From Halomarina pelagica (lineage in GTDB: Archaea; Halobacteriota; Halobacteria; Halobacteriales; Haloarculaceae), in the NCBI RefSeq assembly GCF_024228315.1, contig NZ_CP100454.1:434001-498000 (forward strand): 64,000 nt of DNA, read 5' to 3'. This document shows, piece by piece, positions 27,777-51,480 of this stretch. Position 1 is the first letter of the stretch. Each line of letters begins with the position of its first letter. The notes below the pieces were generated by a model, which did no database searches, had not been told where the DNA came from, and saw only the letters and a list, made by a program, of their open reading frames with translations. The position numbers and the translations under genes are program-made.

Positions 27777-27964
27777 CTCCGCTCCGTGTCGGGTTCGTTA
27801 CATACGTTCTACCCGACGGGGTCTGCATCGAACGGCCCTCTCGGTCCGGCGATCCCTCACCGCCGACCGACTGATGTCAGGATCGTCATGAGTGTAAGTC
27901 GGACATACTCTACCGTCCGGGAGCGCAGTCGGCGGTCGCGCGGTCCGCGGACCGCGCGACCGCA

Positions 27965-50709: not shown

Positions 50710-50833
50710 TCAAACACAAGGTAATAGATATATGTACCACAGAGTTTTTAAAATACCCGCTGTCTGTTCAATTCTCGGTATACGATACTATCTAGTTCAG
50801 CGAGTTTGAGAAGCGAGGTGGTCGTAGTGAGAA

Positions 50834-51340
50834 GTGATCATTGAACTCGCAGATCTCCGTAAAGAGATGTTAGACGTGGGGAATCAATACGTTTGGGAGA
50901 ACGAGCGAACACCGAGACCCGTCTGCTGTTTCGCGGTTCGACTTCACTCGATAGGGATGTCATTGCGTGAAGTCAAGGCCGTCCTGGACTCGCTGGGTGT
51001 CAATTGCTGCCATCAAGCGATTTGTGCACTGTGGAAGACGCGACGCGTCTTCCATGCTTACAAGAACGACGAAGTCGTTCTTGAGACAGCCCATCAGAAC
51101 CGCTTCGCGTTCCGAGGACGGCGTTCCTCCACCGCCTCACGAGAGACAGGATCTCTCCGAGACAGCGTTTCCTGTCGATGCTGGCGGCTATCCGACTGCC
51201 TCACTCGTCACGAATTGAGCGGTCATCTCGACTGCAGTGACCGGAACCACGTCGAGACGTGGTTCCGGACCGTCTCGACGCGGATCGACAGCTTCCACTC
51301 TCCTTGTGGCGGAGCAGTCAAGCAAGTGCAATACGGTGGT
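50834..51340 (+). pseudogene. IS6-family transposase pseudogene
   Basis: From GTG 50834 the frame reads IIELADLRKEMLDVGNQYVW, ENERTPRPVCCFAVRLHSIG and VLDSLGVNCCHQAICALW, matching the N-terminal part of haloarchaeal IS6-type transposases. The catalytic core that should follow is replaced by hairpin-rich DNA. The end re-emerges in pieces: FPVDAGGYPTA in one frame, then RHELSGHLDCSDRNHVETWF and TVSTRIDSFH in another. The first DDE Asp region is missing and at least one frameshift is present. It cannot be active. Confidence 0.7.
51032..51268. repeat. cluster of perfect palindromes inside the IS remnant
   Basis: Within 237 bp there are several perfect hairpins. They are TGGAAGACGCG/A/CGCGTCTTCCA (51032-51054), CAAGAACGAC/GAA/GTCGTTCTTG (51061-51083), GAGAGA/CAGGA/TCTCTC (51141-51157), and a 13-bp stem with a 2-nt loop beginning CCGGAACCACGTC (51241-51268). 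Weaker stems lie between. Such density is far above expectation for coding-derived DNA. Confidence 0.85.
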
Positions 51341-51480
51341 TACAACGATCCAGACACGACTATGCCAGACATCGACCGAATAGGCGTCGGATGAGTTGGT
51401 GCCAGTTGCTGAAGGTGTGAACTAGATGATTTATCTACGGAAGATATTTTAATTACTGTTACTGTATCTGATGGTGTCAC

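Follow-up and report, generated by a model that had tools for sequence, protein, structure and literature searches.

The locus analysed here raises the question of why several perfect palindromes are packed into 237 bp of a decayed IS6-type transposase gene, and whether all of them arose in the same way. The window, that is, the whole stretch of 64,000 nucleotides of Halomarina pelagica DNA that was analysed, contains an insertion sequence remnant flanked on both sides by the short inverted end motif CTAGTTCA (Table 1). Its assignment to a decayed IS6 transposase, made in a preliminary description of the sequence, was borne out by a match to the IS6 transposase profile of NCBIfam (NF033587, E 9.5e-10, residues 21-65) and by alignment to L015, an intact IS6 copy of this genome. 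The profile score of 38.5 bits fell far short of the 125 required for the family, which is unsurprising for a remnant, and a transposase match was absent from the Pfam scan of the remnant. DNA relatives of the remnant were present in 50 of 146 family genomes, and positions 51119-51300, or nearly so, were 77-82% identical in 29 fetched family relatives.

Table 1. Positions of the features of the IS6 remnant and of the hairpin block within the window.
Feature	Positions	Strand	Basis or state
Decayed IS6-type insertion sequence (approximate limits)	50791..51430	+	End-to-end alignment with intact own-genome copy L015
Transposase gene, 5' part	50834..51021	+	79-85% identity to L069, L073, L079 and L085 up to 51019-51021
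Dispersed hairpin block, inserted; three of the original four or more hairpins left	51022..51120	+	Own-genome copies
Hairpin 2 (stem 11 bp, loop 1)	51032..51054	n/a	Perfect
Hairpin 3 (stem 10 bp, loop 3, GAA)	51061..51083	n/a	Perfect
Linker AGACAGCCCA (family: GGACAGCCCA or CAGCCCA)	51084..51093	+	
Hairpin 4, the hairpin B of the family	51094..51115	n/a	Decayed: 1-nt deletion and T to C relative to L012
Right end of the element (GGACG)	51116..51120	+	
Transposase gene, 3' part	51121..51394	+	Frame shifted relative to the 5' part; worn beyond ~51300
Native IS6 quasi-palindrome (stem 13 bp, loop 2)	51241..51268	n/a	Perfect only in this copy; relatives imperfect

Among the stems of 11, 10, 6 and 13 bp that had been described as dense and perfect, those of 11, 10 and 13 bp are real and beyond chance, while the 6-bp stem is ordinary, being one of several matches of 6-7 bp. 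An origin by chance, aided by GC-rich haloarchaeal codon use, would agree with the palindrome richness of the whole window, where 18 stems of at least 9 bp were found against 6.6 expected under a first-order Markov model, and 12 stems of at least 10 bp against 1.7 expected (15 simulations), so the DNA is moderately palindrome-rich anyway. However, 20,000 first-order Markov sequences modelled on these 237 bp included not one with three stems of at least 10 bp, and the conserved linkers recur in copies elsewhere; these dispersed copies already refute chance, whose likelihood is practically nil. Moreover, the folding of the block 51022-51120 as single-stranded DNA (z = -4.7) was equalled by none of 200 shuffles. 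The longest stem of the window, a perfect one of 15 bp at 27932-27963, is unrelated to both the hairpin block and the IS6 palindrome.

The alignment to IS6 relatives separated the native 13-bp stretch from the inserted block. The same stretch was found in all 30 IS6 relatives as part of a conserved coding motif, pairing at 7-11 of the 13 positions; the relatives mostly read ATC-GAA-AAG-TGG-TTC-CAG, against GTC-GAG-ACG-TGG-TTC-CGG in the window. Two codon differences had been held to make this stem perfect, and they do hold against the relatives, but four base changes act. Compared with the consensus of the relatives (10/13 pairs), all four changes inside the palindrome go towards pairing, and the three unpaired positions are all repaired. 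If substitutions were independent and occurred at the rate of the remnant itself, the chance of reaching 13/13 pairs would be ~5e-5; if the ten existing pairs are held by coding constraint, that of the three repairs alone is ~0.003 (product of per-pair values). One template switch, with the 3' arm copied from the 5' arm, would perfect 51241-51268, and is favoured because one point change plus one switch is simpler than four separate changes; there are thus moderate grounds to suppose that template switching perfected this stem. The earlier idea that the remnant records template-switch mutations fits here to that moderate degree, but not the 11- and 10-bp stems. As for the same palindromes occurring in relatives as ordinary coding sequence, this was found for the 13-bp stem only, and weakly, as the relatives are imperfect there.

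Extending this explanation to the whole remnant, so that all palindromes would be transposase quasi-palindromes perfected in place by template switching, gains from the 13-bp stem, in which every one of the four changes improves pairing (P ~5e-5), but the transposase of the relatives has no counterpart of the first two stems, which instead match copies dispersed elsewhere in the genome. In-place formation of 51022-51120 is already refuted, and this account of all palindromes together is highly improbable. The palindromes of the remnant have two origins, namely an inserted repeat and native IS6 sequence; a common origin is ruled out by the own-genome copies of the block and the alignments of the IS6 relatives, and the initial treatment of the palindromes as a single phenomenon within the transposase fails, since the first two stems belong to an inserted dispersed repeat and not to transposase sequence.

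The search of the genome for further copies of the hairpin block found four of them, three with 85-90% identity to 51022-51120 (C1:3142918, C1:112612 and C1:3353382) and one with ~78-79% (C1:575217). When the whole remnant was used as query, the matches were confined to about this block, and the same copies were recovered with the block alone. They are apparently intergenic, one lying beside an ilvD-like gene and another beside a tnpB-like frame (as read from translations), and share both the linkers and a succession of perfect hairpins. Across the aligned copies, the hairpins follow the order GCGTT[hp1]CAGTG[hp2]TGCCCA[hp3]GGACAGCCCA[hp4]GGACG, of which the window keeps the second and third intact, the fourth damaged and a few bases before the second; these bases (GTGCACTG, before 51032) point to a former hairpin 1. 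The list of palindromes made initially was incomplete in this respect, as the third, imperfect hairpin of the block (51094-51115) had been missed. The loop of hairpin 3 is TTC in the related copies L012 and L014, and GAA in L013. The arrangement of the four-hairpin block looks like that of one element nested in the linker of another, between CAG and CCCA. A longer series was observed at L014:1794-2075, with ~10 hairpins in a row (19-25 bp, mostly perfect, spaced 5-10 nt).

The basic unit of the dispersed family is a double hairpin of 52-60 bp, CG-TT[hairpin A]CAGCCCA[hairpin B]GGA-CG, the element's own ends being only TT and GGACG; copies lie between genes, within transposons and, in the reading frame, within host genes, trpB and the fibrillarin gene among them. 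Species genomes of bacteria and archaea, scanned with the motif, gave at least 80 loci, and all 80 among the matches listed were haloarchaeal by title. The pattern appeared in 28 of 392 genomes of a phylum sample, all 28 belonging to the window's own order, while a reversed control pattern appeared in none of the 392. With the right flank left free, the motif was found in 49 of 195 genomes of the order, and nearly all matches ended in GGACG. Exact matches of the canonical element in viral contigs amounted to zero, and a viral origin was rejected on that count. Related genomes also commonly contain a second type of double hairpin whose linkers differ, GTCGTT[hp]TGATGA[hp]AACCAC (L046, L052, L054, L057 and L058 near 1500; L124:12201), and in L061, L063, L172, L187 and L188 elements lie in a region resembling an IS200/IS605-type left end, after GGGGATACAGCG or similar.

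In 117 copies defined by their linkers alone, hairpin B was perfect in 100, while hairpin A was perfect in 85 of the 115 that could be scored. CGTT accompanied hairpin A in 109 of 115 copies, and hairpin B nearly always presented CGTC(C) on the reverse strand. The stems mostly measured 8-12 bp with loops of mostly 3 nt, and the arms, commonly starting with CA, CG or TC, varied widely in sequence between copies. GAA and TTC loops in otherwise like copies are only suggestive of loop inversion: hairpin B presented them in 22 and 19 cases, respectively, whereas the skew in hairpin A (23 GAA, 4 TTC) disfavours free inversion there.

Alternatively, the hairpins may work at the RNA level, as terminators, stabilisers of mRNA or a small RNA, and owe their spread or persistence to this role. 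Several intergenic copies near gene ends and T-tracts would agree with it, although this is an uncounted impression, and the sense orientation of 15 of the 16 elements found in coding-like frames could be explained by selection on RNA or on the peptide. Nevertheless, the 55 mismatched stem pairs, read in linker orientation, included 9 G.T and 19 A.C, hence with no sign of RNA wobble pairing; copies inside coding genes also speak against an RNA role. A known RNA family was rejected, since Rfam gave no match at gathering score in four loci bearing copies, and a function as RNA is considered improbable overall. Of the uses proposed in the preliminary description, a MITE-like element agrees with the dispersed copies, and a small RNA is disfavoured by the mismatches and the Rfam result.

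The presence of the element inside host genes was examined in 75 scored elements, 16 of which lay in coding-like spanning frames. The length was divisible by 3 in 15 of these 16, as opposed to 15 of the 59 outside such frames, an excess that is in part circular, given that insert lengths in multiples of 3 make it easier for an open frame to run through. Coding periodicity in the two flanks, tested without regard to frame, gave a weak result, with one usable case of 70 under the first thresholds and 5 to 8 of 68-69 scored elements usable per setting under looser ones; among the elements whose phases agreed, the length was divisible by 3 in all for three settings and in 3/4 for the fourth. Pfam matches were found in all ten insert-bearing host or tnpB proteins scanned, the insert lying inside a domain match in seven of them. 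These proteins were fibrillarin, PBP, TnpB, ABC transporter, PALP (TrpB, twice), AidB-like acyl-CoA dehydrogenase, UvrD helicase with PDDEXK, histidine kinase and QRPTase. In the histidine kinases at L150:4929-6593 and L164:733-2691, the HATPase region has several further hairpin-coded repeats (with a peptide like DAVEHGSTSPR) adjoining the element.

The comparison of orthologs is free of this circularity. For the fibrillarin gene (L156/L261), a 54-bp insert was found in one locus and the site was empty in 29 (best 30 of 77 matching genomes). For trpB, the 60-bp inserts of L198 and L202, the two loci that started the trpB search, are positioned one codon apart, and the insert was absent from all 30 other aligned loci (best 30 of 87 matching genomes). 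Empty sites have one CG and filled sites two, the second being compatible both with a 2-bp target duplication and with a CG carried by the element. Such very local insertions (1/30 fibrillarin loci and 2/32 trpB loci) suggest recent movement, as far as sequence comparison can tell. A search for empty sites with joined flanks gave 46 of 71 elements passing a mechanical rule; several passes were false (e.g. L164; L151 versus L181; L212 versus L228), and only crisp empty sites were therefore relied on.

The window's right junction was GCGGCG/GCGTTC, or close to it, in 24 of 30 IS6 relatives, and six of the 30 (L072, L073, L074, L084, L095 and L096) had a double hairpin ending in GGACG at exactly this junction, which makes the insertion site recurrent. 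Since the linker is CGCACA in four of these six (L072, L073, L084 and L096), where most of the family has CAGCCCA, the recurrence may partly reflect one old insertion carried by IS6 copies. On the left side, IS6 similarity reached 51018-51021 in six relatives checked, and the transposase between both junctions measured 193-195 bp in five of six, with 246 bp in L073 because it carries the element. L074, like the window, also lacks transposase left of the junction; two insertion sites are apparently fused there through one element, with the intervening stretch lost. The left side of the window's copy is damaged, so that its own empty site can be placed only approximately. The simplest history suggested by these alignments has two steps, an insertion at the recurrent site and then a left-hand deletion: the element would have inserted beside CG in the IS6 transposase gene, at GCGGCG/GCGTTC, and a later deletion would have taken ~195 bp of transposase and the outermost hairpin, leaving the block 51022-51120, perhaps with the help of a 2-nt microhomology and the palindromes. 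Overall, the locus is very probably best explained by a haloarchaeal double-hairpin mobile repeat within an IS6 gene, a later deletion and a native quasi-palindrome that was perfected separately.

A description of this double-hairpin family was not found in the open-licence literature of PubMed Central, where no paper contained the element's sequence strings or its peptide either. The nearest known kinds are the bacterial CGTC-tagged REP dimers and the Rickettsia palindromic elements (RPEs) and, in haloarchaea, the PATEs and SMRs. Closest in anatomy are the CGTC-tagged REPs, described by Di Nocera et al. 2013 (PMC3733652) as a bacterial superfamily, GTAG and CGTC REPs together occurring in more than 80 species of eight phyla. 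According to that description, CGTC REPs have stems of 8-9 bp starting with A-T pairs, loops of 4-5 nt, an unpaired outer tag and an inner CCA-like tail, form mostly head-to-head dimers, are in some cases intragenic and have no known dedicated transposase (PMC3733652). The haloarchaeal element resembles them in its inner CAGCCCA, its head-to-head arrangement with tags on the outside, its intragenic copies and its want of a known transposase of its own, and may do so in its CGTC-like outer motif, CGTT on one strand and CGTCC on the other. It differs from the published features in its mostly 8-12 bp stems, its loops of mostly 3 nt and its arms without an A-T start, and also in that its two hairpins differ from one another, with a spacing of only 7 nt.

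The intragenic REPs of Rickettsia conorii are given as RPE-4 and RPE-6 (PMC3733652), within ten RPE families of ~150 bp (PMC10969869, PMC3733652). The RPE hallmark is a palindromic repeat in-frame in unrelated protein genes, giving a recurring peptide (PMC10969869), and in the cited accounts such repeats are described from Rickettsia and some other bacteria (PMC10969869, PMC3733652). The element is alike in lying in-frame in unrelated protein genes (10/10 Pfam matches; empty sites in fibrillarin and trpB), and differs, compared by description, in its 52-60 bp, its two hairpins and its haloarchaeal hosts. Fungal mitochondrial double hairpin elements and sponge mitochondrial repetitive hairpin-forming elements, reported as noncoding with two or three hairpins between or within genes (PMC2800124), have by description the same multi-hairpin build without coding capacity, but are mitochondrial.

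Within haloarchaea, the element might be a known PATE or SMR of the Haloquadratum type. The PATEs of Haloquadratum walsbyi are described with near-terminal palindromes, no target duplication and terminal-only forms of 52 bp, and the SMRs as short, transposase-free repeats that target other mobile DNA (SMR-A ~110 bp, one SMR-B 80 bp; PMC3119063); the element likewise is a transposase-free haloarchaeal mobile repeat, in some cases nested in other mobile elements, and one Haloquadratum MAG contains it (L155). On the other hand, terminal-only PATEs arise by the fusion of two near-terminal palindromes into one, and SMRs have terminal inverted repeats and members commonly more than 95% alike (PMC3119063), whereas the element has 52-60 bp, two unlike hairpins, widely variable arms and sites in host genes. 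Sizes, ends and reported hosts set it apart by the published descriptions, and insertion into host proteins is unmentioned in the relevant parts of PMC3119063; membership in either kind is unlikely.

With regard to the way in which this double-hairpin family moves, the unit would fold as single-stranded DNA into two hairpins, and a single-strand transposase (HUH, Y1/RAYT-like) provided in trans would cut it and join it beside CG. Spread by such Y1/RAYT-like insertion is a possibility put forward by analogy, held with somewhat less than even confidence, and draws on the capacity of the unit to fold into two hairpins, on its joining beside a short target and on the PATE-like and REP-like parallels. 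Among the loci examined, the search for a longer element bounded by both ends of the unit yielded nothing but chance or compound pairs, and no mobilising gene was linked to the element. The alternatives are template switching during replication, by which the unit would be copied, and a recombinase whose crossover spans 2 bp.

For haloarchaea as a class, it may be tentatively proposed, more as a conjecture than an expectation, that a still-active double-hairpin family forms an archaeal arm of the CGTC-REP and RPE world. Its folded single strands, inserting beside CG, would supply host proteins with a ready-made peptide (like VRKTTESSSAAHQNAERSE) and so influence how proteins evolve, while template-switch correction would keep the stems perfect and would also perfect quasi-palindromes like 51241-51268. 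A warning for annotation is that a haloarchaeal protein may owe a short insert with an AAHQ-type peptide to mobile DNA. Furthermore, the local insertions in fibrillarin and trpB are precise reporters. Haloferax and Haloarcula are genetically tractable, and the haloarchaeal family brings tractable organisms to the question of what moves REP-like hairpins that have no transposase and of whether the added peptides matter.
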